A stretch of DNA of 33,909 nucleotides from Cyanobium sp. N.Huapi 1H5 (GTDB lineage Bacteria > Cyanobacteriota > Cyanobacteriia > PCC-6307 > Cyanobiaceae): positions 1-33,909 of the forward strand of contig NZ_JAGQBH010000012.1 of NCBI RefSeq assembly GCF_024345535.1. Reading direction: 5' to 3'. Below, piece after piece: positions 3,694-33,410 of this stretch. The notes below the pieces were generated by a model. The model was not told the DNA's origin. It made no database searches and saw only the letters and a list, made by a program, of their open reading frames with translations. The translations under genes were made by a program, and so were the position numbers. Within the stretch, counting starts at the first letter, position 1, and each line of letters opens with the position of its first letter.

Positions 3694-5649
3694 GTGCTTG
3701 CCGTGGTCCGTCCGTGGTTCAGCCGATGCCTGCCAATGGTTGCCCTGCTCCTGGGGCATGCCATCGGGACAGCCGCGCCCGCCATGGCCCTCGCCCAGCG
3801 GGTTCCCGCTGCAGCGAGTGACCTTTGGAGCTCACAGGCACGGCCGCAGAAGAACAACCAGCTGCCGCCGCAGGTGAGCGACTGGATCCGCCAGGCCAGC
3901 GCACTGGAAGACAAGGGCGCCAACCGCGAGGCCCTGACCCTGCAGCAGAAGGCCGTGAACTGGCTACGGGCGAATTCCCAGCAAGGCGATGCCACCGCGG
4001 CCGGAATCCTCCATGGCTTCGGGCGGCTGCTCTGGATGAACGACAAGCCCGTTGAGGCGCTTGGCCCAGTGGCGGAAGCCGTGGCGCTGCGCCGAAGGCT
4101 CATGGGAATCAGCAGCGATGCCGCGGCGGATCTGGCGGTATCCCTGAGACTGCAAGCCACCCTCTATGCAGCCCTGGGGCGTAGGCAGGATGTGCTTCCA
4201 CCCATCCAGGAGGCCGTGGCAATCCATCGCCGGGTGGCCGAACGCGACTCAAGCCTGACCGTCCAGCTCGCCCATTCCCTGAACATCCTGGGACTCATCT
4301 ACAGCGCGCTTGACCGCCCTGCAGAGGCGCTGCCACCCACCATCGAGGCGGTAAAGATCCGTCGATCACTGGCCATCAAGGATCCCGATGAGATGGCCAA
4401 CCTGGCCCATGCCCTGAATGATCTGGGAAATCGCTACGGCGAACTCGGCCGACTCGAGGACGCGCTCGCTACCTACCTGGAAACAGTGCAGATCCTCAGG
4501 AGGATGGCTCCCGCCAATCCTGCCTCCCCCAGCGTTCTGGCAGGCACCCTCGACAACCTGGTCACGGTCTACCGCGAACTCGGGCGACCCTCCCAGGCCC
4601 TGCCCCTAAGCCTGGAAACGATCCAGCTCCACCGCCGATTGGCAGGCACCGACCCCACCACGCAGAGCCGGCTCGGTGATGCACTTCATCAGCTTGGTCT
4701 CATCCACAGGGAGATGGGACATCCTTCTGATGCACTGCCAGCCCAGGTCGAAGCCATTTCGATCTACCGCAGACTGTCGGCAGTCAGCACCGAGAACCTC
4801 GATGGCCTGGCCAGCACATTGAACAACCAGGGGAACTGCCTGAGTGACCTTGGACGCCATGAAGCGGCTCTCCCTCCAAGCCAGGAAGCGGCGAAGATCT
4901 ATCGAGGCCTCGCGGAGCGAGACTCGATCTTCCAAAAAGATCTTGCCCTCTCGCTCACGAACCTGGCCCTTCGCTTCAGTGCCCTCGGACGCGACGCAGA
5001 ATCCGTGTCGCCCAGCCTTGAAGCAGTGGCGCTGTACCGCAGCCTGGCGAAGGGCAATCCCTCTGTTCGGGAGGAGTTGGCTGGTGCCCTGGTCAACCTG
5101 GGCAGCTACTACAGCCGATTGGATCGAGAACAAGAAGCGATCCCTCCCACCGTCGAAGCCGTGACGATCGTTCGCAAGCTGGCGGCAGAAACACCCCAGG
5201 TAAGGGGCAATCTGGCCCTTGCCCTCAACAACCTGGGTGCTTATCACGGCGACTCAGGAGATCCATCGAAAGCGCTTCCCTTCTTCCAGGAAGCGGTGGC
5301 GATGTACCGCCAACTGTTGGTCACAGAGTCCGCCTACCTCGCATCGCTGGCCAGCTCCCTCATCAACCTAGGGATCTCCCTCAGTCAGCTCGGTCGCCAT
5401 TCTGAGGCACTGCCAGCTACCACCGAAGCTGTGCAGATCTACCGCCAACTGGCGGCCAGAGATCCTGCCTTTCAGGAGGGTCTCGACCGAGCGCTTAACA
5501 GGCTGCACCAAATCCACAGACAGCTGGGGCGCCCGGAAGAAGCCTTGCCCAGCACCGAACCGTCCTTGAGCCTTCAGGGCTCCAGTCTCTTGCCATCGCG
5601 CAGGAGACACCCCATAGGGGTAGAAGAGTGGAGCTGCTTGGGAGGTTGA
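3694..5649 (+). CDS. Secreted tetratricopeptide-repeat protein
   Basis: A 651-aa protein. The GTG start at 3694 gives a signal peptide with a basic n-region, a hydrophobic core (LPMVALLLGHAIG) and an Ala-x-Ala-like site near residue 33 (PAMA). ATG at 3736 is an alternative but weakens the n-region. From about residue 100 to 620 there are some eleven repeats with a 46-residue period, of the form EALP..EAV.IYR.LA...P....LA..LNNLG..YS.LGR. These are kinesin-light-chain-like TPRs that stack into a helical solenoid for protein binding. Cyanobacterial proteins of this kind often end in a CHAT protease domain; here there is only a short 30-residue tail, so it appears to be a pure scaffold. Export to the periplasm or cell surface is inferred from the signal. 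The autotransporter gene follows 230 nt downstream on the same strand. Confidence 0.8.
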   Translation: MLAVVRPWFSRCLPMVALLLGHAIGTAAPAMALAQRVPAAASDLWSSQARPQKNNQLPPQVSDWIRQASALEDKGANREALTLQQKAVNWLRANSQQGDATAAGILHGFGRLLWMNDKPVEALGPVAEAVALRRRLMGISSDAAADLAVSLRLQATLYAALGRRQDVLPPIQEAVAIHRRVAERDSSLTVQLAHSLNILGLIYSALDRPAEALPPTIEAVKIRRSLAIKDPDEMANLAHALNDLGNRYGELGRLEDALATYLETVQILRRMAPANPASPSVLAGTLDNLVTVYRELGRPSQALPLSLETIQLHRRLAGTDPTTQSRLGDALHQLGLIHREMGHPSDALPAQVEAISIYRRLSAVSTENLDGLASTLNNQGNCLSDLGRHEAALPPSQEAAKIYRGLAERDSIFQKDLALSLTNLALRFSALGRDAESVSPSLEAVALYRSLAKGNPSVREELAGALVNLGSYYSRLDREQEAIPPTVEAVTIVRKLAAETPQVRGNLALALNNLGAYHGDSGDPSKALPFFQEAVAMYRQLLVTESAYLASLASSLINLGISLSQLGRHSEALPATTEAVQIYRQLAARDPAFQEGLDRALNRLHQIHRQLGRPEEALPSTEPSLSLQGSSLLPSRRRHPIGVEEWSCLGG

Positions 5650-16593: not shown

Positions 16594-19359
16594 ATGTTCC
16601 TCAAGGGAAAGTCAAATCGCACGAATAGCGCCAGTACTGGCCAGATTACCGAAAGCTACGTAAACCATATCGACAACCTTGAACTGAACGATAACCAGAA
16701 GAGCTACCTCAAGGGTCGCTGGCTTGCTGAGTTCCTCCAAGTCACAGAGCAACACAGAGTTGCGGAGCAACGCTACAAATACTCAAGACTGCTGATTCTC
16801 TTTGGCAGCATCCTTGTGCCGGCCATGATTTCTTGGAAGACGCCGGACAAAATCGAGGACCTGAAAATTGAAGGCACCGCCCTTACAATAAACATTGATT
16901 GGGATGCATTGAGGAGTTCCCTGGCAGTGATCATCAGCCTATCGGTAGCCGGTGCAGCCGCCATTGACGACTTTTTTGATTTCGGCGAACGCTCAAGGGT
17001 GCGCTTCAAAACAAAGGAAAAAATGGAGAGTGAATACTGGAGCTTTATTGGCGGAGCTGGCTATTATCGAACCTATGCCATCAAGAAAGCAAAAGCTGTT
17101 CACCCAGATCTGGTTGACATCACATACATCTACAAACCGGCAGAAGCTTACGACATCTTCCCTGGGCGAATAGAAGCCATTGCAAAAGAGGATTTTCGCA
17201 ACCAGATTGAAATCCTTTCCGAGCAACTCAGGCAAGATGCGAAAGAAGAGGCCAGAAAACTAGTGTCTCAAGCCTATGAGAACCTCGATACGCCCCTTGT
17301 AGCACCAAACCAACCAGCAGCAACAACAGACATCCCGAAGACTGGAAGCCCTACCGTTCTAGACAATCCCCCGCCCCAAAGCCCCTCTAGCGGTAACGAT
17401 GTTCCCAAGGTCATTGAACCCAGCAAGCCGGAGCCCTCTGGAGACGGACTGGAGGTGCTCAATCAGATTGAAGTGCCAACCAAGATCAATGAATTAGAGC
17501 CGAAAGCCAAGAAAGCATTGGCGGAGGGACTGATTAAGATTCAACTCCTGGAACCGGACCATGCCACTGATGACATCAAGCTCCTTCAGGCATGGAATCA
17601 ATTCAAGCTCAGTGAAAAGCAAAGTGATCCTGATTCCATCGGACCGGGGAGCGTGTCTCTCCTTAAGGAAAGACTCATCAGCGAGAAAGAGCATGCCGAT
17701 CGCATCAAGAAACTTGCTCCTCTGCATACGATAAAGCAACAGTTGAAAATCAATGCCCTTTCTCAGGATGTTCAGAACGCCTTGAAGTTTGGCCTCAAGG
17801 AGCTCAATATTAATGTAGAAACTCAGAACCTTCAAGACGCATGGTCGGAGTTCAAGCAAAAGGAATCGCTTGGTCAGCTTGAATTCATTGGGCCTGGAAG
17901 TGCGAACCAGCTCCTGCGCCTGCTTGGCAGCCTTCCAAGCCACGCTGGTGCAAAACTGACACCCAAGCTACAAGCCTTGCCCTTTGAGGCGCAAAGCGTC
18001 AGTATCCCCCTCAGTGGAAGCGTTGGAAAAGGTGGTGAGAACAACCCTGATGATGTTGCCATGGTGAGGCGGCGCCTCAAAGAGCTGGGGTACAGGGTTT
18101 CATCAGGAAATACGATTACCAATGACGACACCGATTCGATCAGGCTGTTCCAATCCATCATTGAGCCTTCACCAGGAGTCCTCGGTGGCGATGGAAGGGT
18201 CGATAAAAATGGGCTCACGCATCAATATTTGCAATCTGCAAATGCACCTCATTGGATCCTGATGCCGATCGAAGGCGAGGGATACATCAATATTGAGAGG
18301 AAAGAGGAACTACACGACGACCACGACTACGGGACAAGCTGGCTGGCAGAAGTGATCGAAGCCGCAGGATCTTTGTATGAAAGCGATTATCGACGCCAAA
18401 ACAAACAAAGTGCAAAAATCGGAGTCAATGATGCCAGTCGTATCTATGGCGGAGATACAGACGATCATTTTGGCCACGAATGCGGAAACGTCTGCGATTT
18501 CACCCTCCCTAAACTTAATGGCGACTTTGGTGGCATCGAATTCTCCAACAAGATGTATGACAGAAGTGCAGCCAGAGCGATGCTGAAGGCCTTCCGCAAG
18601 CAATCACAGATAACAAAGATTAATGTCACTAAAATCTTGTTTAATGACCCAATGCTGATTAGCGAAGGACTCTGCACTCACGCAGGTGGGCACGCCGACC
18701 ATTTCCATGTTGAGATTGGACGGAAAGAACTTCAAAATCCAACCTCAAAAGTTATCTTTGCTTCCATCACATCGGACGACGAACCTGGCCTCTTAACCCA
18801 GAAGTGTGATTTGCTTCAATCTCTCAAGGACTCCAATGAACTTGTGGCTATTGCCGTGGGATATTCCGAAGGAAACCGGACATTAAATGGTGGCAAGAAT
18901 ACCAGCTTCTCTGGACATATTGACCCAGGCAACAAGCAACGAAATGTTGGCTCGTTCAGCTCTCAAGTGCACCTTCACAAGATCAGCAATCCTGAAGAGG
19001 CCGATGCCCTATGGCTGACCAAGCTACGAAATAATTTACTTCCCAAATACAAGCAAGCGGCACTCGATGCCGATCTTGATCCCAATCTTGCGTTCCTCTG
19101 GCTGTCCGCCTGTGACCTGTATGTCCAATCCCCAGCAGCTGTTAATGAAAAGGCTGGACTGCTGGATCGTTTTTCAACAGACATCAACAAAGGAAGACTT
19201 TCCTTTGATGCGATGGTGCAAGCCAGGGTCAGTAGCTACTTTGAACCGAATTCCGGCAAGTTGAATGCTCCAGGCTTTGGCAATAATCTTGCCAGGCTCA
19301 AAAACGACCAGATCAGAAGATCTCGCGCCATCGAGCTCGCCATCAAAACGCTGCTGTGA
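16594..19359 (+). CDS. DUF4231/SLATT-like membrane protein fused to peptidoglycan-binding and LAS-type peptidase domains
   Basis: A 921-aa protein from ATG 16594 (AAGG upstream). Residues 36-160 are DUF4231-like: YLKGRWLAEFLQ, two TM segments (65-80, 107-123) and a conserved FGERSR...SEYWSFIGGAGYY block. Residues 232-290 are a Pro-rich linker. Two related helical units end in SIGPGSVSLL (348-357) and FIGPGSANQLL (431-441). Residues 472-548 resemble a PG_binding_1 fold (VAMVRRRLKELGY, DGRVDKNGLTHQYL). Residues 570-710 carry an LAS/MepA zinc centre: His628-x6-Asp635 (HECGNVCD) and His703-x-His705 (HADHFHV), expected for murein peptide cleavage. Residues 750-921 form a further unassigned domain (GYSEGNRT, SGHIDPGN, NVGSFSSQ, QSPAA). 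It is probably an inner-membrane-tethered wall hydrolase. SLATT relatives are conflict-system effectors, so a self-lysis or toxin role is possible. No immunity gene is evident. Confidence 0.75.
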   Translation: MFLKGKSNRTNSASTGQITESYVNHIDNLELNDNQKSYLKGRWLAEFLQVTEQHRVAEQRYKYSRLLILFGSILVPAMISWKTPDKIEDLKIEGTALTINIDWDALRSSLAVIISLSVAGAAAIDDFFDFGERSRVRFKTKEKMESEYWSFIGGAGYYRTYAIKKAKAVHPDLVDITYIYKPAEAYDIFPGRIEAIAKEDFRNQIEILSEQLRQDAKEEARKLVSQAYENLDTPLVAPNQPAATTDIPKTGSPTVLDNPPPQSPSSGNDVPKVIEPSKPEPSGDGLEVLNQIEVPTKINELEPKAKKALAEGLIKIQLLEPDHATDDIKLLQAWNQFKLSEKQSDPDSIGPGSVSLLKERLISEKEHADRIKKLAPLHTIKQQLKINALSQDVQNALKFGLKELNINVETQNLQDAWSEFKQKESLGQLEFIGPGSANQLLRLLGSLPSHAGAKLTPKLQALPFEAQSVSIPLSGSVGKGGENNPDDVAMVRRRLKELGYRVSSGNTITNDDTDSIRLFQSIIEPSPGVLGGDGRVDKNGLTHQYLQSANAPHWILMPIEGEGYINIERKEELHDDHDYGTSWLAEVIEAAGSLYESDYRRQNKQSAKIGVNDASRIYGGDTDDHFGHECGNVCDFTLPKLNGDFGGIEFSNKMYDRSAARAMLKAFRKQSQITKINVTKILFNDPMLISEGLCTHAGGHADHFHVEIGRKELQNPTSKVIFASITSDDEPGLLTQKCDLLQSLKDSNELVAIAVGYSEGNRTLNGGKNTSFSGHIDPGNKQRNVGSFSSQVHLHKISNPEEADALWLTKLRNNLLPKYKQAALDADLDPNLAFLWLSACDLYVQSPAAVNEKAGLLDRFSTDINKGRLSFDAMVQARVSSYFEPNSGKLNAPGFGNNLARLKNDQIRRSRAIELAIKTLL

Positions 19360-21958: not shown

Positions 21959-22662
21959 CTCCCCCCCTCCTGCAGCGGGCCGCCCTCTGGCGCGCCGCCA
22001 GCCTCGGCCTCTGGGCCCTGGTGCTGCTCATCAGCAGCGTCGACGGCCGCCTCGACCTGCTGCTGCGGGCCGTGTTCCACCCCCTGGTGGCCCTGGCCGG
22101 CCTGCTGCTGCTGCTCGTCGCCCTGCTGCAGCTGCGCCTGGCCTTCGGGCCCGGCCGGCAGGAGCGGGGCGACCGGCGCCAGGCCCGCACCCTGCTGCTC
22201 ACCGCCGCCATCGCCCTGCTGGTGCTGCTGCTGCCGCCGGCCCCCTCCTTCGCCGACCTGGCCGGCCAGCGCCCCCGCGACGAGACCGCCGAAAGCGAGC
22301 TCAGCTTCGTGCTGCCGCCCGCCCAGCGCAGCCTCACCGACTGGGTGCGGCTGCTGCGCAGCCAGCCCGATCCCAAGCTGTTCGCCGGCGATCCGGTGCG
22401 CATCAGCGGCTTCGTGCTGCCGATGGAGGGCGAATCTCCCCAGCTGGCCAGGCTGCTGGTGCGCTGCTGCCTGGCCGATGCCTCCCCGGTGGGGCTGCCC
22501 GTCCACTGGCCCGCGGGCCAGGCCCCCTTCCCCGCCGACCAGTGGCTGGCCATCGACGGGGTGATGGGCCTCAGGCCCGCCCCCGGCGGCGGCGAGCGGC
22601 TGGAGGTGGTTCCCAGCCGCATCCGGCCGATCCCCCGGCCCGCCCGGCCCCTGGAACCATGA
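21955..22662 (+). CDS. TIGR03943 / DUF1980 family membrane protein (permease partner)
   Basis: A 235-aa protein starting at GTG 21955 that overlaps the permease stop as GTGA. TM segments near residues 15-27, 41-62 and 80-95 are followed by an extracytoplasmic domain (about 100-235). This domain has DPVRISGFVLP (145-156) and VRCCLADASPVGLPV (169-183), the Cys-Cys motif typical of the family and a possible metal site. It probably works with the preceding permease as a complex in the inner membrane. Translational coupling on both sides places it in one operon with the queD-like, permease and Big_5-like genes. Confidence 0.88.
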   Translation: MTPPLLQRAALWRAASLGLWALVLLISSVDGRLDLLLRAVFHPLVALAGLLLLLVALLQLRLAFGPGRQERGDRRQARTLLLTAAIALLVLLLPPAPSFADLAGQRPRDETAESELSFVLPPAQRSLTDWVRLLRSQPDPKLFAGDPVRISGFVLPMEGESPQLARLLVRCCLADASPVGLPVHWPAGQAPFPADQWLAIDGVMGLRPAPGGGERLEVVPSRIRPIPRPARPLEP

Positions 22663-24039: not shown

Positions 24040-24441
24040 ATGCAGGCCCCCTCCGTACCCGATCTCCCGCCGCGCCAGGCCTCCCTGCTGGCGGAACTGC
24101 GCGACGCCGACGGCGAACTGAGCGGCCAGGACCTCCACGCCCGGCTGCGGGGCGGCCCCTCCGCCATGGGGCTGGCCACCGTCTACCGCCACCTGCGCCA
24201 GCTGCAGCAGCGGGGCCTGGTGCGCTGCCGCCACCTGCCCAGCGGCGAGGCCCTCTACGCCCCGACCGAGCGGGACGAGCACCACCTCACCTGCGTTGAC
24301 TGCGGCGCCACCATGGTGCTGCCCCACTGCCCCGTGCACGGCCTGCACCTGCCGGGGGAGGAACTGGGCGACTTCCTGCCGATGTACCACACCCTGGAGT
24401 TCTTCGGACTCTGCGGCCGCTGCCGGGGCGCGCGGTCCTGA
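24040..24441 (+). CDS. zur: Fur-family zinc-responsive repressor
   Basis: A 133-aa Fur-family regulator. Winged helix at residues 10-70 with the recognition segment MGLATVYRHLRQLQQRGLV (43-61). The dimer domain has HHLTCVDCG (Cys85, Cys88) and LCGRC (Cys125, Cys128), the structural CxxC zinc pair. PHCPVHGLHL and YHTLEFFGLC are close to cyanobacterial Zur (FurB) rather than Fur or PerR. Zur represses zinc uptake and mobilisation genes when zinc is sufficient. It starts 10 nt after the Big_5-like gene, so it likely shares the operon and may autoregulate it. cobW lies about 5 kb away across the conflict module. I found no clear Zur box by eye. Confidence 0.87.
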   Translation: MQAPSVPDLPPRQASLLAELRDADGELSGQDLHARLRGGPSAMGLATVYRHLRQLQQRGLVRCRHLPSGEALYAPTERDEHHLTCVDCGATMVLPHCPVHGLHLPGEELGDFLPMYHTLEFFGLCGRCRGARS

Positions 24442-24451
24442 GCTCCGGTCC

Positions 24452-24859
24452 TCAGGACTTCAGGCTGTCGCGGTGCAGCACCGCCATCACATCGAGGATC
24501 TGGCCGCAGCGCTCCGCCGGCACGCTGATCAGTTCCCCCAGCCGTTGCAGCATCGCCTGCTCCACCGGCTTGAGGCTGCGGTTGGTGTGCACCAGCAGGG
24601 CCGCCATCGCATAGGCCGTCTCCTGCTGGGGTGGGGTCAGCACCGGTGCGGCCTCCACCAGCAGCTGCTCCCAGCCGCCGCTGCGCAGCCGCCCCAGCAG
24701 GCCATCGAACATCGCCCCCATCACCGCTTCGCCGAGGTTTGCGTAGGGCGAGCGCACCTCCAGCAGCTGCCGCAGCATGGCGGCCTCCTCACCGTCGAGG
24801 GCGCCATCGCAGGCCACCGCGGCAAGCCCGATGGCGGCGAAGGCTTCGCTGGAGTTCAT
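24452..24859 (-). CDS. TerB-like tellurite-resistance-family protein
   Basis: A 135-aa all-helical protein with the TerB-family pattern of paired acidic helices: FAAIGLAAVACDGALDGEEAAML (split: FAAIGLAAVACDG, then ALDGEEAAML, residues 7-30) and MAALLVHTNRSLKPVEQAMLQRL. The Asp/Glu cluster in the first helix pair is the presumed metal-binding site of the fold. No signal or TM. It is convergent with zur (11 nt between stops) and lies 180 nt downstream of the STAND gene on the same strand. TerB domains occur in membrane-linked stress and conflict systems, but this may be a housekeeping copy. Confidence 0.7.
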   Translation of the reverse strand: MNSSEAFAAIGLAAVACDGALDGEEAAMLRQLLEVRSPYANLGEAVMGAMFDGLLGRLRSGGWEQLLVEAAPVLTPPQQETAYAMAALLVHTNRSLKPVEQAMLQRLGELISVPAERCGQILDVMAVLHRDSLKS

Positions 24860-25036
24860 GGACCTGGTTCGGAGATTGCCATTCCAGCAGCCGCGGCGGC
24901 ACTGGTGGGGTCATCAGGGCCATTCCAGAAGACGGCCAGAGGGATCCGACAGGCGAAAACCTGGTTGGCGAATTCGGGATCCTGCCAACAGTTCGTCGGT
25001 TTGTATGACCCAGCATTGGATCCAAAACACCGGTGA

Positions 25037-28000
25037 TCAGGAATCACTTTCCAGCAGGGTGGCCTCCGGCTCAACCTGATTCACCTCGCACAACTCCACA
25101 TAGAGAGCCCGGATCATGGCGGCCAGTTCCGTGTGGTCACCAGACGCTCGCCGAACCAAATCCACAGCGATCTCCAGGGATTCGGTGCAAACCTCCAGAG
25201 CTTCGTGGGTCTGTTCGTTCTGGCAGAGGCAGCGGGCCATGGTGTCCAGAGCATCCGCCAAAGCGGGACGGAAGGCATCAGGTGCAGCCACCGCCAACAC
25301 CCGATAGATCTCCACCACCTCATCGATCGCCTTCAGCGCCCCAGCCCGATCCCCCCCAACCGAGAGGCAGCTCGACAGGTTATTGAGGGTCTCCGCCAGG
25401 TTGCTACGGAAGGCGGCGGGGGAATCCTTTGCCAACTTCCTGTCGATCTCCACCGCCTCCTGGATCACCTGCATCGCACCAGCCCAATCCCCCTCATCCG
25501 AGAGACAGCTCGACAAGTTGTTGAGGCACATCGCAAGCTCGGGACGGAAGGCGTCGGGTGCCACGGCCGACAACTCCCGATAGACATTCACCGCTTCCTC
25601 AATCGCCTGCAGTGCCCCAACCCGATCTCCCTTATCCGCGAGCCGCAGCGACAGATTGTTGAGGCTCATTGCAAGCTCGGGACGGAAGGCGTCGGGTGCC
25701 ACGGCCGACAACTCCCGATAGACATCCACCGACTCCTCCATCGCCTGCAGGGCCTCCGCCTGATCCCCTCTATCCGTCAGGCGGTTCGACAAGTTGTTGA
25801 GGCACCTCGCCAGAGCGGGACGGAAGGCGTCGGGTGCCACCGCCGCCAACTCCCGACAGACATCCACCGCCTCCTGGATCACCTTCAGCGCCCCAGCCCG
25901 ATTCCCTGCATCAGACAGGACATTCGAATAGTTATTTAGGCTCGCAGCCAGGTCGGGACGGAAGGTGTCGGGCGCCGCCGCCGTCAATTCCCGGTAAAGA
26001 TCCACCGCTTCCTCGATCGCCTTCAGCGCCCCAGACTGATCCCCGGTATCCCCTCGCCGCAGCGACAGATTGTTCAGGCACCTCGCCAGAGCGGGACGGA
26101 AGGCGTCGGGTGCCACCGCCACCAACTCTCGTCGGATGGTCACCGCCTCCTCGATCGCCCTCAGCGCCCCAGCCCGATCTCCGTTATCCGCTAGCCGCAG
26201 CGAAAGATTGTTGAGGCTCATCGCCAGGTCGGGACGGAAGGCGTCAGGTGCCGCCGCTGCCAAATCCCAATAGTGCTCAAGCGCTTCCTCAACCGCCCGG
26301 AGCGCCCCCACCCGATCCCCTCCATCCGAAAGGCGGTTAGAGAAGTTATTGAGGCTCATCGCCAAATCGGGCCGAAAGGCTTGGGGTGACGCCGCCGCTA
26401 ACTCCCGATAGAGATCAAGCGCTTCCTGGACAGCCTGGAGTGCCCCCGCCCGATCCCCTCCATCCGAACGGCGGTTCGCCAGGTTGTTGAGGCTCATCGC
26501 CAGGTCGGGCAGGAACGCGTCGGGTGACGCGGCCGCCAACTCCCGATAGAGATCAAGTGCTTCCTCAATCGCCTCCAGCGCCCCAACCCGATCCCCCGTA
26601 TCCCCAAGCCGCACCGACAGGTTGTTGAGCAGCCGGGCCCGCATCGCTGGCGGCATCCCCGCTTCTCCTTCCAGGGCCCTACTGGTGAGGCTCACGGCCA
26701 TAGGTGCCAGTACCAGAGTCCTCTGGGGCACCACCTCCAGCAGCCGGTTGGCCTCTGCGGGATCAACGGAGTGCTCCTCCATCTGGCGCTCGATCGCGGC
26801 CACCAGAGGAGCTCCGGCCCGGGGAGCGGCAGCCAGGGCAAGGGGCAGGATCCGAATGGCCTCTGAACCCAGCAGCTGATCCAGCCCCGCGGCGGCGGCC
26901 GCCCAATCAGCCTGGCCGAGGCGGCCAAGACCATTGAGGGCCGTTGCCAGCTGCCCATCGTCGGCATGGTCGGACAGACCTGAGAGACAGAGGGCGAAAT
27001 CACCGTCTTCCCGGCAGAGCTGGGCCAGCAGCGCATCGGCCAACCGATCGGGTTTCAGCGCCGGCCAGTGTTCCTCACCGGGGTACAGGTTCCGCAGCCA
27101 TACCTCCACCTTGCGGCGGTCGCGCTCGGGGGCGTCCCTCAGCCAGGGCAGGGCCCTGAGCACCTCGCGGCCAGCCTCTGGGCTCTGGGCCCCGCAGAGG
27201 CTGGCGAGGCCCACCAATTGGGCGAGCTGGGGGCGCTCCTCGCTCAGAACCGCCTCGATCGGTTCCTTCCGGTGCTGCCAGTAGATCCTCTCCCGCCCCA
27301 GCAGGGCGCTCCACAGCGAGCCCGAGGGCTGGGGGTGCCCTGGCTCGGCTTGGTCTGGGGAGCTCAGGCAGCGCAGCAGGGCCTCCGCCTGCAGCGTGAG
27401 GATCGCCTCGAAGCCGCTCAGCCTCCCCTCGGCTTCCTGAGTGGCCGGCGGGTTCCGCCCCAGCACCATGGAAAAGGCGGCCGCAGCCCTTTGGAACGCT
27501 TCAGGCCGGTCGGCCACTTCGGGCAACAGCGGTTCCAGGACCAGCCGGCGAGCTCCCTGCATCGCCAGATGCACGGCCACCTCCTCCATCCCCTGGAGCT
27601 CCAGCTGCTCCCACCAGTCCCTCTCCGTGCGGGCCACCAGCACCAGCCGGCAGGGCGCCGGGGCCTCGCGGCCGGCCAGGGCAGCCAGAAAGGCCACCAA
27701 CTCCTCGGTGGGGCGCCAGTGGGCCTCATCCAGCAACAGCAGCAGGGGCAGGCCACTGGCTCGATGGGGAGCCAGCGCTTCGGCACGCAACGGACCGCTC
27801 CCGGGTGCCGGCAGCCAGCCGGCCAGCCACCCGGCCCGGCCGGCCCGCTGTGCCAGCTCGCCGATCAGGCGGGTCTTGCCATTGCCGCCGCCCCCCGTCA
27901 GCAACCACAGGCGGAACGGACTCTCTCCTCCCAGCCAGGTTTCCAGCGCCTCCAGTTCCCTCTGGCGACCTTCGAAGGGCACCACGCCGTATTCCGGCCG

Positions 28001-28747
28001 CAGCAGCACCGCCGGAGATCGGGCCGCCTCCGATGGCAGCGGTTCATGCGGGGCTCGCAGCAACCCCCAGGGGTCATTCCAGAACAGGGGCCGGCTGGTT
28101 CTGCTGAGGGCTTGACAGAAGCCCGGATCAGCCAGCACATCCTGCAGGGGCTGCACCGTGAGGGAGCTGCTGCCCTCCCGCAGCTCATGCACCACCACCA
28201 CCCCCACCAGGCAATCCCCCACCAGCACCGCCGTGCCGGAGATCCCCGGCCAGGGGGAGTTCTGATGGGGCTGCGGCGGCAGGGGGTTCTGATCGAGCTG
28301 CAGCTCCCAATGCCCTGTGGCCAGATTGGCCCCCAGACGCAGCTCGCCCTTGAGCTGGGCGCTGTCGCGCACACCGGCCGGGAAACGCTCGCTCCCATGC
28401 CGTTCCTTGAAGTCGGGAAAGCCCACACCGTCGCAGACATGGCTGGTGATTCCCCTGCCCAGCGGGGCCAACCGCACCAGGTCCTCAGAGTCCTCCCCCT
28501 GCTGGAAGCCCTCCAGACGGACCAGGGCCAGGTCCTGGCCCCCGCGCCACAACACCGTGGACTCCCGCCAGCTCCGGCAGGGGTCGCAGGGATCCAGGCA
28601 CGCTTCCAGTGAAGCCAGGCCGTCCACCACATGGGCGGCGGTGAGCACAACGGCGCCACACACCCGGTAGCCGGAGCCGAACCGGCAGCGGCCATCCGGG
28701 AGAACCCCGCGCAGCTTGGCCAGCCTCTTCACCTGGGGGCCGCCCAT
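25037..28747 (-). CDS. Trypsin-like protease / STAND NTPase / TPR conflict-system protein
   Basis: A 1236-aa protein from ATG 28747, 5 nt after the Trypco2 stop; the frame is open to 29008 but that would overlap Trypco2. Residues 1-215 are a trypsin-like serine protease with a visible triad: His39 (LTAAHVVD), Asp72 (GGQDLALVRL) and Ser170 (WPGISGTAV). Residues 255-500 are a STAND P-loop NTPase: RQRELEALETWL, Walker A TGGGGNGKT (284-292), Walker B LLLLLDEAH (335-343) and VLVARTERDWW. A helical region follows, then ten 46-residue TPR units (719-1178). No signal peptide or TM is seen, so cytoplasmic. In such systems the repeats sense a ligand, NTP binding drives oligomerisation and the protease is the effector; this is the family model, not shown here. 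Defence or programmed cell death is the likely role. Confidence 0.88.
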   Translation of the reverse strand: MGGPQVKRLAKLRGVLPDGRCRFGSGYRVCGAVVLTAAHVVDGLASLEACLDPCDPCRSWRESTVLWRGGQDLALVRLEGFQQGEDSEDLVRLAPLGRGITSHVCDGVGFPDFKERHGSERFPAGVRDSAQLKGELRLGANLATGHWELQLDQNPLPPQPHQNSPWPGISGTAVLVGDCLVGVVVVHELREGSSSLTVQPLQDVLADPGFCQALSRTSRPLFWNDPWGLLRAPHEPLPSEAARSPAVLLRPEYGVVPFEGRQRELEALETWLGGESPFRLWLLTGGGGNGKTRLIGELAQRAGRAGWLAGWLPAPGSGPLRAEALAPHRASGLPLLLLLDEAHWRPTEELVAFLAALAGREAPAPCRLVLVARTERDWWEQLELQGMEEVAVHLAMQGARRLVLEPLLPEVADRPEAFQRAAAAFSMVLGRNPPATQEAEGRLSGFEAILTLQAEALLRCLSSPDQAEPGHPQPSGSLWSALLGRERIYWQHRKEPIEAVLSEERPQLAQLVGLASLCGAQSPEAGREVLRALPWLRDAPERDRRKVEVWLRNLYPGEEHWPALKPDRLADALLAQLCREDGDFALCLSGLSDHADDGQLATALNGLGRLGQADWAAAAAGLDQLLGSEAIRILPLALAAAPRAGAPLVAAIERQMEEHSVDPAEANRLLEVVPQRTLVLAPMAVSLTSRALEGEAGMPPAMRARLLNNLSVRLGDTGDRVGALEAIEEALDLYRELAAASPDAFLPDLAMSLNNLANRRSDGGDRAGALQAVQEALDLYRELAAASPQAFRPDLAMSLNNFSNRLSDGGDRVGALRAVEEALEHYWDLAAAAPDAFRPDLAMSLNNLSLRLADNGDRAGALRAIEEAVTIRRELVAVAPDAFRPALARCLNNLSLRRGDTGDQSGALKAIEEAVDLYRELTAAAPDTFRPDLAASLNNYSNVLSDAGNRAGALKVIQEAVDVCRELAAVAPDAFRPALARCLNNLSNRLTDRGDQAEALQAMEESVDVYRELSAVAPDAFRPELAMSLNNLSLRLADKGDRVGALQAIEEAVNVYRELSAVAPDAFRPELAMCLNNLSSCLSDEGDWAGAMQVIQEAVEIDRKLAKDSPAAFRSNLAETLNNLSSCLSVGGDRAGALKAIDEVVEIYRVLAVAAPDAFRPALADALDTMARCLCQNEQTHEALEVCTESLEIAVDLVRRASGDHTELAAMIRALYVELCEVNQVEPEATLLESDS
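25214..26593 (-). repeat. Ten tandem 138-bp coding repeats (TPR units)
   Basis: Ten in-register units of exactly 46 codons in the STAND protein, without a single length change. The consensus is DRAGAL.AIEEAVD.YREL then AA.APDAFRPDLA and LNNLS.RL.D.G. Some neighbours are almost identical at the DNA level: the units near 25540-25625 and 25678-25763 share a long exact block. This points to recent duplication or gene conversion, and copy number could vary between strains. Confidence 0.92.
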
Positions 28748-28752
28748 CGTGT

Positions 28753-29100
28753 TCAGTCCGGCATCGCTTGTGCGGCGCCCCGTTCGCTGGCCACCTCCAG
28801 GGCCGTGCGATGGCCGGCGGCATCGATCTCCAACGGCTCCAGTTCCAGCTGGATCGTCTGGGTCACCTCCGAGGCCAGGCTGGCGTTGGCGCCGGCCTCG
28901 ATCACATACCAACGCACCTTGCCTTCGGCGCCCCCTACCCGTTTCGCCACCGCCTGAAGGGTGAGCTGGATCGGCTTGAGGCGAAAGCGCAGCCTGCTGC
29001 CGCCCCAATCCCGTTCGTCGATCGCCGCTTCCAGCTCGGCCCGCAGCCCGCGGATGGCATCAGCCAGATCCAGGAATCCGTCGGTGGAAGGGAGGGCCAT
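28753..29100 (-). CDS. Trypsin-co-occurring domain 2 (Trypco2)-like small protein
   Basis: A 115-aa protein from ATG 29100 (GTG at 29103 directly precedes). The pattern LADAIRGLRAELEAAIDERD, then LRFRLKPIQLTLQAVAK, GGAEGKVRWYVIEAGA and QTIQLELEPLEID, matches the Trypco2 domain (initial helix, then beta strands) described as genetically linked to trypsin-fused NTPase conflict proteins. It ends 5 nt before the trypsin-STAND gene, a two-gene operon. Its role in such systems is thought to be regulation or adaptor function for the protease; the partner here is the STAND protein. The gene diverges from cobW with about 100 nt between. Confidence 0.8.
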   Translation of the reverse strand: MALPSTDGFLDLADAIRGLRAELEAAIDERDWGGSRLRFRLKPIQLTLQAVAKRVGGAEGKVRWYVIEAGANASLASEVTQTIQLELEPLEIDAAGHRTALEVASERGAAQAMPD

Positions 29101-29206
29101 CACCAGCGCGCTGACTGAACTGATTTCATGATGGCCATCGCTGGCTACCCAGGCCAGATCCGCCTCACCTCAGTGCCTATCGTCAGAGAATGGACCGCAG
29201 CTTCCG

Positions 29207-30400
29207 ATGACGATCACCAGTTCCAACCCGGCCAGTGGCTCCGCCCCAGCCCAGGCGAAGGATCAGGAAGCCCGGCCCATCGCCGTGCCGGTGACGATCC
29301 TCACGGGCTTCCTCGGGGCGGGCAAGACCACCCTGCTCAACCACATCCTCAGCAACCAGCAGGGCCTCAAGACCGCCGTGCTGGTCAATGAGTTCGGCGA
29401 GATCGGCATCGACAACGAGCTGATCGTGGCCACCGCCGACGACATGGTGGAGCTGAGCAACGGCTGCATCTGCTGCTCGATCAACGGCGAGCTGCTGGAG
29501 GCCGTCTACCGGGTGCTGGAGCGCCCCGAACCCGTCGACTACCTGGTGGTCGAGACCACCGGCCTGGCCGATCCCCTGCCCGTGGCCATGACCTTCCTCG
29601 GCAGCGACCTGCGCGACCTCACCCGGCTCGATTCCATCATCACCCTGGTGGACGCGGAGAACTTCGGCCCCGAGACCCTGCAGGGCGAAGTGGGCCGCTC
29701 CCAGATCGTCTACGGCGACATGATCCTGCTCAACAAGTGCGACCTGGTCAGCGAGGAGCGGCTGGAGGCCCTCGAAAACGAGCTGCGGGCGATCAAGAGC
29801 GAGGCCCGCATCCTGCGCTCGGTGAAGGGCGAGGTGCCCCTGCCCCTGCTGCTGAGCGTGGGCCTGTTCGAAAGCGACCGGGTGGTGGCCCAGCAGCAGG
29901 CTCCCGCCGCCGGCGACCACCACAGCCATGACCATGACCACGGCCATGACCACGGGGCCGAGGACCACAGCCACTGCGACCACGACCACGGTCACTGCGA
30001 GCACGAAACGGCGGCGGGCCATGACCACGCCCACGATCACGGCCATCACCACGATCACGCCCATGACCATGGCGGCCATGCCGACCACCAGGCCATCGAG
30101 GGCTTCACCTCCCTTTCCTTCAGCAGCGACGGCCCCCTCTCCCTGCGCAAGTTCCAGAACTTCCTCGACAACCAGATGCCGGCGGGGGTCTTCCGGGCCA
30201 AGGGCATCCTCTGGTTCAACGAAAGTGAGCGCCGCCACGTGTTCCACCTGGCCGGCAAACGCTTCTCCATCGACGACAGCGACTGGCCGGGGGAGCGCAA
30301 GAACCAGCTGGTGCTGATCGGCAAGGATCTCGACCACAAGCGCCTGCGCCAGCAGCTCCAGGCGTGCGTGGCCGGCGAGGCGGGCAAGGGCTTCGCCTGA
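29207..30400 (+). CDS. CobW/COG0523 metal-chaperone GTPase
   Basis: A 397-aa G3E-family GTPase. Motifs: Walker A GFLGAGKTTLL (34-44), NEFGEIGIDNE, the metal-binding CxCC motif GCICCSI (Cys87, Cys89, Cys90), ETTGLADP, base-recognition NKCD (176-179) and the C-terminal CobW_C domain (about 298-392). A His-rich stretch at residues 237-294 alternates His and Asp and probably buffers zinc. COG0523 proteins insert zinc or other metals into client enzymes, often under Zur control. zur and a metal-type permease pair lie upstream across the conflict module, so a zinc role is favoured over cobalt. Start ATG 29207. Confidence 0.92.
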   Translation: MTITSSNPASGSAPAQAKDQEARPIAVPVTILTGFLGAGKTTLLNHILSNQQGLKTAVLVNEFGEIGIDNELIVATADDMVELSNGCICCSINGELLEAVYRVLERPEPVDYLVVETTGLADPLPVAMTFLGSDLRDLTRLDSIITLVDAENFGPETLQGEVGRSQIVYGDMILLNKCDLVSEERLEALENELRAIKSEARILRSVKGEVPLPLLLSVGLFESDRVVAQQQAPAAGDHHSHDHDHGHDHGAEDHSHCDHDHGHCEHETAAGHDHAHDHGHHHDHAHDHGGHADHQAIEGFTSLSFSSDGPLSLRKFQNFLDNQMPAGVFRAKGILWFNESERRHVFHLAGKRFSIDDSDWPGERKNQLVLIGKDLDHKRLRQQLQACVAGEAGKGFA

Positions 30401-31847: not shown

Positions 31848-33410
31848 ATGGCGAGCGCGGCAACGGCGCAGCGGGCAGTCGCCACCCGGACGGGCCCGCC
31901 GATGCGGCGGGCCTCCCTGGCGGTGGCGGTTCTGGCGGTCTGCGCCCTGGCGGTGCTGCCGTTCCTGGCCCTGGCCGGCTTCGCGGTTCGCGATGCCGGC
32001 ACCAGCGGCCTCTGGCTGGGGGCCGAAGGCCTCGAGCAGCTGAGCAACACCCTGGTGCTGGTGGTCGGCGTCGGCCTGATCGGGGCCCTGCTCGGCACCG
32101 CCAACGGCTGGCTCACCGCCTGCTGTCAGTTCCCCGGCCGCCGCTGGCTGCGGCTGGCCCAGGTGCTGCCCCTGGCAGCTCCGGCCTTCGTGCTCGCCGC
32201 CGTTCTGGTCGACCTCGGCAGCCGCTGGGGCTTTCGCGTGCATGGCATCGGCTGGGCCGTGCTGCTGCTCAGCCTCACCACCTACAGCTATGTCTTCCTG
32301 CTCTCCACCGAGAGCTTCTCCGGCAGCGGCCAGCGCCAGTTGGAGGCCTGCCGCAGCCTGGGGGTTGGCCCCTGGGGCAGCTTCCGGCGCGTCGCCCTGC
32401 CCCTGGCGCTGCCCTCCATCGGCGCCGGTGTCGCCCTGAGCGGCATGGAGGTGGTCAATGAGCTCGGCGCCGTGGAGCTGCTGGGGGTGCCCACCCTCTC
32501 AAGGGGGATCCTGCAGCGCTGGCAGGCGGAGGGCGACCTGCCGGGGGCCGTGGGGCTGGCCCTGATCGCCCTGGTGCTGGTCAGCCTGCTGGTGGGGGCT
32601 GAACGCTGGATGCGCCAGCGCAGCCGCCGCTGGAACCTGGGCCAGGGGGACGCCGGCACGCTGCAATGGCCGCTGCAGGGCTGGCGGTCCGTGTCGGCCC
32701 AGCTGCTCACCGTGCTGCCGCCCCTGCTCAGCCTCGGGCTTCCCCTCACCTGGCTGGTGGCGAGCCGGGACCACTTGCAGAGCGATCCGCTCGAGGACCT
32801 GCTGGCCCTGACGCTGCGCAGCCTGGGGCTGGCCCTGGCCGCCGCCCTGCTGACCGTGGCGGGGGCCTTGGTGCTGGCCATCAGCCGCCGCTGGCTGGCC
32901 AACCGGCTTCTGGGACGGCTCACCTTCTTCGCCGGCATGGGCTACGCCGTGCCGGGCACCGTGCTGGCCCTGGCCCTGATGCTGATCGGCGGGCCACTGC
33001 AGCTCAGCCCCCTGCTGCTGCTGCTCTGGGGCTACGCCGACCGCTTCCTGGCCGTCGCGAAGCAGGGACTCGACGCCTCCTTCGAGCAGATTCCCCCCAG
33101 CCTGGACGAATCGGCCACCAGCCTGGGCTGCGGCTGGCTGGCGGTGCTGCGCCGCATCCACCTGCCGCTGCTGCGTGGTCCGCTGCTGGTGGGGGGCTTG
33201 CTCGTCTTCGTCGACGTGGTCAAGGAGCTGCCCCTCACCTTCTCCCTGCGCCCCTTCGACTTCGACACCCTCTCGGTGCGTGTCTATCAGTACGCCAGTG
33301 ACGAGCGGGTGGGGGCGGCCCTGATTCCGGCCCTGCTGATCCTGGCCCTGGGCCTGGCCGCCTCGATCGCCCTGATGCCGAGCCTCGAACGCCAGGGCCG
33401 GGGCGACTGA
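31848..33410 (+). CDS. futB: Ferric-iron ABC transporter permease (FutB-like)
   Basis: A 520-aa inner-membrane permease with two homologous halves of about six TM segments each. Each half has a BPD/EAA loop that docks on the ATPase: EACRSLGVGPWGSFRRVALP and DESATSLGCGWLAVLRRIHLP. The layout of fused halves is typical of Fut/Sfu-type iron permeases. It ends in TGA at 33408-33410, followed by a strong hairpin (33442-33464). Operon with futA. The ATP-binding subunit must be encoded elsewhere. Confidence 0.92.
   Translation: MASAATAQRAVATRTGPPMRRASLAVAVLAVCALAVLPFLALAGFAVRDAGTSGLWLGAEGLEQLSNTLVLVVGVGLIGALLGTANGWLTACCQFPGRRWLRLAQVLPLAAPAFVLAAVLVDLGSRWGFRVHGIGWAVLLLSLTTYSYVFLLSTESFSGSGQRQLEACRSLGVGPWGSFRRVALPLALPSIGAGVALSGMEVVNELGAVELLGVPTLSRGILQRWQAEGDLPGAVGLALIALVLVSLLVGAERWMRQRSRRWNLGQGDAGTLQWPLQGWRSVSAQLLTVLPPLLSLGLPLTWLVASRDHLQSDPLEDLLALTLRSLGLALAAALLTVAGALVLAISRRWLANRLLGRLTFFAGMGYAVPGTVLALALMLIGGPLQLSPLLLLLWGYADRFLAVAKQGLDASFEQIPPSLDESATSLGCGWLAVLRRIHLPLLRGPLLVGGLLVFVDVVKELPLTFSLRPFDFDTLSVRVYQYASDERVGAALIPALLILALGLAASIALMPSLERQGRGD

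Follow-up and report, generated by a model that had tools for sequence, protein, structure and literature searches.

A two-gene Trypco2 and protease/STAND NTPase/TPR module inserted in the genome of Cyanobium sp. N.Huapi 1H5, and the relation of Trypco2 to the class of its partner peptidase

Trypco2 was named in 2020, when Trypco1 and Trypco2 were defined as neighbours of trypsin-bearing VMAP genes in the MoxR-vWA-VMAP ternary systems (Kaur et al. 2020, PMC7159879). In the available portions of that paper and of a later one (PNAS 2024, PMC10907252), which includes one locus with a CHAT protein, it is called a trypsin-co-occurring domain or an adapter, with no test of its function. According to the parts available of PMC12799240, the defence proteins of AVAST (Avs1-type; here a STAND protein) and Hachiman carry a fused trypsin-like protease at their N-terminus and have a partner gene directly upstream, and the protease cuts and activates a pro-nuclease. 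The CARD-NLR/LypABC systems combine a trypsin-like protease with an NTPase bearing tetratricopeptide repeats (TPR), and LypABC controls the release of a gene transfer agent (PMC13236601, also available in part). The present analysis concerns a pair of adjacent genes in a stretch of 33,909 nucleotides of Cyanobium sp. N.Huapi 1H5, called here the window, which is one entire contig of a 3.14-Mb genome in 12 contigs; the 11 phycobilisome-family matches in that genome identify its owner as a cyanobacterium, probably a picocyanobacterium to judge from its genome size and its kin. NLR-type alarms are composed of a repeat sensor, a STAND switch and an N-terminal effector, and the larger protein of the pair has the same design, Trypco2 being the unusual part. 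The features of the module are:

28753..29100, minus strand: Trypco2 gene, 115 aa from the ATG at 29100 (116 aa if the GTG at 29103 is used), with a PF19631 match
25037..28747, minus strand: large gene, 1236 aa, trypsin-like protease / nSTAND5-type NTPase / helical region / TPR
28073..28747, minus strand: serine protease domain, residues 1-225, with His39, Asp72 and Ser170
27533..27997, minus strand: STAND NTPase core, residues about 251-405, with Walker A G290-K291, Walker B D340 and Arg373
25250..26629, minus strand: ten TPR units of 46 aa (138 nt) each, residues 707-1166, followed by a degenerate eleventh

The locus shares with the MoxR-vWA-VMAP systems the position of a Trypco2 gene beside a trypsin-domain gene, but, going by the published portions cited above, it differs from them in that the large protein has no VMAP-C domain by Pfam, carrying a STAND NTPase and a TPR array instead, and in that no MoxR or vWA gene lies beside the module, its neighbours being a terB-like gene and cobW. 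The VMAP-C model gave no match in the Cyanobium genome and was also silent in 14 control genomes; it matched in loci L083 and L119. The upstream partner in AVAST and Hachiman is a nuclease of the metallo-beta-lactamase fold, whereas here it is Trypco2, and the gene downstream of the module is terB-like. In CARD-NLR/LypABC the CARD-protease and the NTPase-TPR part are separate, while in the window they form one protein with Trypco2 as partner; a CARD-like domain ahead of the protease was not seen in the structure model, where the protease fold appears to begin near residue 1. The module falls outside the VMAP, AVAST and CARD-NLR systems as described. A preliminary description of the window had placed the module's association of parts among described conflict systems. 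This is supported, with the refinement that Trypco2 in PMC7159879 belongs to MoxR-vWA-VMAP systems, the partner genes of which do not adjoin the module. No description of a two-gene Trypco2 unit was found among the papers that were searched, and such units may be listed in supplementary files.

The relation of Trypco2 to its neighbours was analysed in the 388 genomes of the class, where 37 Trypco2 places other than the window's own scored over the cut-off; six of them at contig ends (G065:C35, G312, G288, G218, G335 and G139:C30) were left out and 31 were testable. In 27 of these 31 cases the next long open reading frame (ORF) after Trypco2 is a peptidase gene, trypsin-like in 11 (E 0.001 or better) and CHAT in 16 (all over the cut-off: L079-L085, L106, L108, L109, L111, L113, L114 and L118-L120), so that CHAT is the commoner partner in cyanobacteria. 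Conversely, 11 class matches other than the window's own cover the protease part of the large protein, and nine of them adjoin Trypco2. In the Trypco2 tree, where the partners of P0004-P0009 were labelled as trypsin by assumption, trypsin-linked and CHAT-linked rows are separated by one change, with support 100/99. The same split, again with one change, was obtained with observed partners only (12 vs 16), and it was also obtained after removal of four long-branch rows (10 vs 15). The trypsin clade spans partners fused to NACHT, NB-ARC, nSTAND5 or EAD9. New here are, within the cyanobacteria surveyed, the regular position of Trypco2 before a peptidase gene and the splitting of its tree by the class of that peptidase, while the fused NTPase and repeat parts vary; the split suggests that the protease is what Trypco2 controls.

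The same question was approached with partial Mantel correlations, run on pairs from which shared ancestry is only partly removed. Among 15 nSTAND5 pairs, the correlation of Trypco2 with the protease was 0.60 (p 0.0005) when corrected for the NTPase, and that of Trypco2 with the NTPase was 0.30 (p 0.034) when corrected for the protease. The divergence of Trypco2 follows that of the peptidase more closely than that of the NTPase. Dropped from the full set, which had 27 pairs, were the plasmid loci L147 (a long gap between annotated genes) and L149 (a near copy of L141), and the cyanobacterial loci L070, L076 and L077 (contig ends) and L073 and L074 (unclear ends of the Trypco2 ORF).

Two side observations were made in the survey. 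At L121 and L122, a weak Trypco2-like match lies at the start of solute-binding-type proteins of 637-666 aa with TIG, CARDB and SBP_bac_5. At L066 (6748-7932), close to the end of the contig, a Trypco2 gene comes after an AIPR-family gene of the same orientation.

Both genes of the module are intact. The small protein had been described as Trypco2-like, and this is borne out by its match to PF19631 (E 1.7e-21; 76.6 bits against a Pfam cut-off of 24.2), no other Pfam family being matched; the 115-aa start was preferred because most homologues use the equivalent Met. Its ORF ends 5 nt from the ATG at 28747 of the 1236-aa frame, both on the minus strand. In the large protein, the triad H39, D72, S170 and the NTPase residues G290, K291, D340 and R373 are invariant across 19 aligned rows, in agreement with the intact triad and Walker A and B motifs claimed beforehand, and the ten TPR units that had been counted were found again together with the degenerate eleventh. 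In the profile searches Trypco2 scored over its cut-off, while the large protein scored below the cut-offs for Trypsin_2 (19.6 vs 27.6 bits; its relatives P0011, P0012 and L071 are over it) and for the nSTAND5-type family PF25199 (24.5 vs 34 bits). Structure prediction, proposed for the protease-NTPase pair, gave a chymotrypsin/HtrA-like fold for the protease domain, with a match covering residues 1-221 and the first strand of the model at residues 9-15. A search of a viral fold library gave matches mostly to the protease domain, and a sequence search of solved structures gave none for either protein. The ten regular TPR units are 65-84% identical to each other in DNA, which lends no support to a recent growth of the array in this copy. 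A scan for promoters and terminators gave no match.

Close relatives of the two proteins are few. Among 5.8 billion proteins searched, eight matched the subfamily of the window's Trypco2 (P0003 may be the cluster holding the window's own protein), and the subfamily profile matched in two of 292 genomes of the phylum, one being the Cyanobium genome itself and the other a weak match. The nearest relative of the large protein is P0011, with 51% identity over the N-terminal 680 residues, followed by P0039, with 44% identity over 94% of residues 1-420; P0009 and P0011, both from a JGI contig of 10,730 bp, were treated as one locus by assumption. Over its full length the 680-residue protease-NTPase part had no other relative among the 388 class genomes, partial matches being 24-52% identical, and a scan of named genomes, which reaches close relatives only, gave no confirmed relative. 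P0010, on an NCBI contig of 266,163 bp, is a 68-aa Trypco2 relative, 83% identical to that of the window over half its length and lacking the N-terminal part; it may be what is left of the module in a different genome.

The nearest architectural kin of the module are two-gene units on actinobacterial plasmids. A plasmid search with the 680-residue part matched 48 records, 40 of them from Streptomyces, and in all of the best 15 of the 48 a gene annotated as 'trypco2 family protein' lies directly upstream (H17 and H18, among the 15, are near copies). Gene order in these Streptomyces and Nocardia units is that of the window. The large gene is annotated as 'tetratricopeptide repeat protein' in 14 of the 15 and as 'trypsin-like peptidase domain-containing protein' in one; the TPR parts are known from these product names, except for L141 and L149, whose sequences were read. 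The units are nevertheless distant in sequence (28-31% identity over 81-88% of the 680-residue part, among the best 15 of 48), and they lie on actinobacterial plasmids, whereas the Cyanobium module lies on a contig with conserved zur, terB and cobW. Transposase or recombinase genes occur near six of the 15 units, with a Tn3 transposase and recombinase flanking two of them, other transposases near two and recombinases near two. When plasmids were searched for Trypco2 itself, 13 records matched, and a protease gene comes next in six of the seven that were fetched. Two alphaproteobacterial plasmids have consecutive genes for Trypco2, a trypsin-like or serine protease, and MoxR, trios that resemble the published MoxR-vWA-VMAP ternary type. 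The pair of Trypco2 and protease recurs in cyanobacteria, on actinobacterial plasmids and on two alphaproteobacterial plasmids. The sister Streptomyces plasmids L141 (NZ_CP108499.1) and L149 (NZ_CP130723.1) have an identical Trypco2 protein accession, and their TPR proteins, annotated start aside, are the same except for exactly one unit of 46 aa and a single substitution; this pair is a natural case of change in the sensor array. A distant plasmid relative, L131, gave weak PADLOC matches to RT-Protease_XI, HamA and LmuA.

The position of the module in the Cyanobium genome was compared with that of related genomes. The features concerned are:

24912..29206, no strand: inserted segment of about 4.3 kb, both flanks aligned with relatives, 16 empty sites
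24452..24859, minus strand: terB-like gene, left flank (PF05099 E 0.026, below cut-off), with orthologues adjoining cobW in 16 congeners
24040..24441, plus strand: zur/fur-family regulator, conserved neighbour (FUR E 3.7e-13)
29207..30400, plus strand: cobW-family GTPase, right flank (cobW E 1.8e-56), adjoining terB in 16 congeners

The module is a strain-specific insertion. Matches were obtained in 39 genomes, and 30 loci (own included) were compared. Sixteen congeners have zur, terB and cobW side by side, the terB orthologue (77-92% identical) standing in the middle, and their gap from terB to cobW is 84-103 bp, against about 4.3 kb in the window; in 10 of the 16 the start of cobW, and hence the length of the gap, was extrapolated from a partial match. 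The loci of the other 13 relatives (L028-L040), with a more distant terB and neither zur nor cobW in the stretch, are no test of the site. Because the 16 congeners that keep the three genes together lack the insert, a housekeeping operon is rejected. Trypco2 was found in none of the 41 further congeners, a set that includes incomplete drafts, in one of 400 genomes of the family, namely the window's own, and in 35 of the 388 of the class, own included. The insertion proposed in the preliminary description is thus confirmed, and the module is neither syntenic nor universal in the clade; the zinc gene set that it was said to split does have cobW on the right, while its immediate left neighbour is the terB-like gene and not zur. 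Homology to the relatives ends on the left at about 24911/24912. On the right it fades gradually, upstream of cobW and within its first 21 codons, so that this edge is not exact and lies between about 29165 and 29270 (cobW codon 22). An imperfect 16-nt direct repeat (24878-24893 and 24919-24934) spans the left junction, its first copy being conserved empty-site DNA and its second lying near the start of the insert; the 10-mer common to both copies is found nowhere else in the window (expected 0.17). The G+C content at third codon positions (GC3) is 0.79 in the large gene and 0.81 in Trypco2, compared with 0.90-0.94 in three genes on each side (the gene at 22542, zur and terB on the left; cobW, the solute-binding protein gene SBP and the gene at 31848 on the right) and 0.96 in an ArsP-type permease gene further left. 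The module was likely acquired horizontally.

It seems reasonable to propose that the module is an NLR-like infection alarm with Trypco2 as a protease gate, a reading with inferred functional steps that we regard as evenly poised. The TPR array would sense an intruder, presumably a phage, and the STAND NTPase would assemble into an oligomer. Upon assembly the serine protease would be switched on and would probably kill or arrest the infected cell (abortive infection). Trypco2 would bind the protease domain and keep it quiet until assembly, being displaced or cut on activation; this role is proposed because Trypco2 varies with the class of the peptidase. A broader view, somewhat less probable and offered tentatively, is that Trypco2 is a general gate of immune peptidases that split early into a trypsin-like and a CHAT (caspase-like) lineage, each keeping its protease while NTPase, repeat and adaptor parts were swapped; the window module would then be a self-contained two-gene form, with gate, protease, switch and sensor, moving between phyla and now present in a small-genome cyanobacterium.

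Several results weigh against these proposals. Four of the 11 trypsin-like partners in cyanobacteria are under the Pfam trypsin cut-offs (L067, L072, L074, L077), four of the 31 testable Trypco2 genes have no peptidase directly downstream (L069, L117, L121, L122), and at L139, one of the seven fetched plasmid Trypco2 loci, no peptidase gene is annotated downstream. Taken over all 27 pairs, the partial Mantel correlations are 0.52 for Trypco2 with the protease and -0.24 for Trypco2 with the NTPase, but this set mixes unlike NTPases, and a fair control is given by the nSTAND5 subset only. The structure model of Trypco2 is of low confidence (predicted local distance difference test, pLDDT, 47) and was not used. 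The PADLOC models gave no convincing match to the module, only one of E 0.013 in the NTPase, and no nuclease, gasdermin or pore gene linked to it was seen. The identity among the TPR units gives no sign of a very recent change of the array. GC3 is a weak sign, as elsewhere on the contig, left of 20 kb, genes have values between 0.45 and 0.88, and low GC3 alone is therefore no proof of foreign origin. Phage records and viral contigs held no match to the module, the viral part of this negative being weak (two Trypco2 peptide patterns); with no match there, phage-borne cargo is without support.

Another possibility is that Trypco2 is the substrate of the protease and the true effector, cut on activation with release of a toxic fragment. 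Given the precedent of the AVAST and Hachiman protease in the available part of PMC12799240, it is the leading rival, and, as in those pairs, the Trypco2 gene immediately precedes one whose product has its protease at the N-terminus; the C-terminal tails, which differ between trypsin-linked and CHAT-linked Trypco2 and are longer in the latter, also speak for it. However, trypsin-linked Trypco2 proteins are mostly of 100-128 aa, that of the window matches no other family, and a shared cut site is not expected in a family that also serves CHAT peptidases. We consider a substrate role unlikely. An adaptor role, in which Trypco2, similarly to EAD domains in other conflict systems, would recruit to the assembled protease substrates or effectors whose genes lie elsewhere, seems to us more doubtful still. 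It agrees with the occurrence of Trypco2 beside very different architectures (NB-ARC, NACHT, EAD9, VMAP, CHASE2) and with the term adapter in the available text of PMC10907252, but the Cyanobium genome has a single Trypco2 match, that of the window, and Trypco2 tracks the class of peptidase more than the rest of the protein. That the module is instead a regulator with a STAND switch, controlling for instance host lysis or a mobile element, is improbable: LypABC is a precedent (PMC13236601, in its available part) and the kin are associated with plasmids and transposons, but no gene-transfer-agent or prophage family was found in the 16 window ORFs scanned with Pfam, and the patchy presence, one in 400 genomes, fits defence cargo better.

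Other features of the same genome were recorded. A 651-aa TPR_10/TPR_12 protein at 3694-5649 of the window shares 36% identity with the TPR region of the module's large protein. A second foreign-looking stretch, 9659-19359, has low GC in the ORF at 9659-10636 (0.44), in the gene at 13151-13969 for a class-3 lipase (0.48) and in that at 16594-19359 for a DUF4231 protein of 921 aa (0.49), the last present in one of 42 genomes of the genus (its own) and without a PADLOC match. Two CHAT-domain frames lie on other contigs, at C5:58086-58964 (L151) and C1:218890-219771 (L152).

The module is real, intact and rare in its clade, and its architecture is common to units on actinobacterial plasmids, while its function is a prediction from sequence. 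The splitting of the Trypco2 tree by peptidase class makes the role of Trypco2 a testable question of protein-protein interaction, namely whether the protease is bound and held. The two-gene form is small enough for transfer to a laboratory host, and the 16 congeners with an empty site are natural comparison strains for fitness or phage sensitivity.

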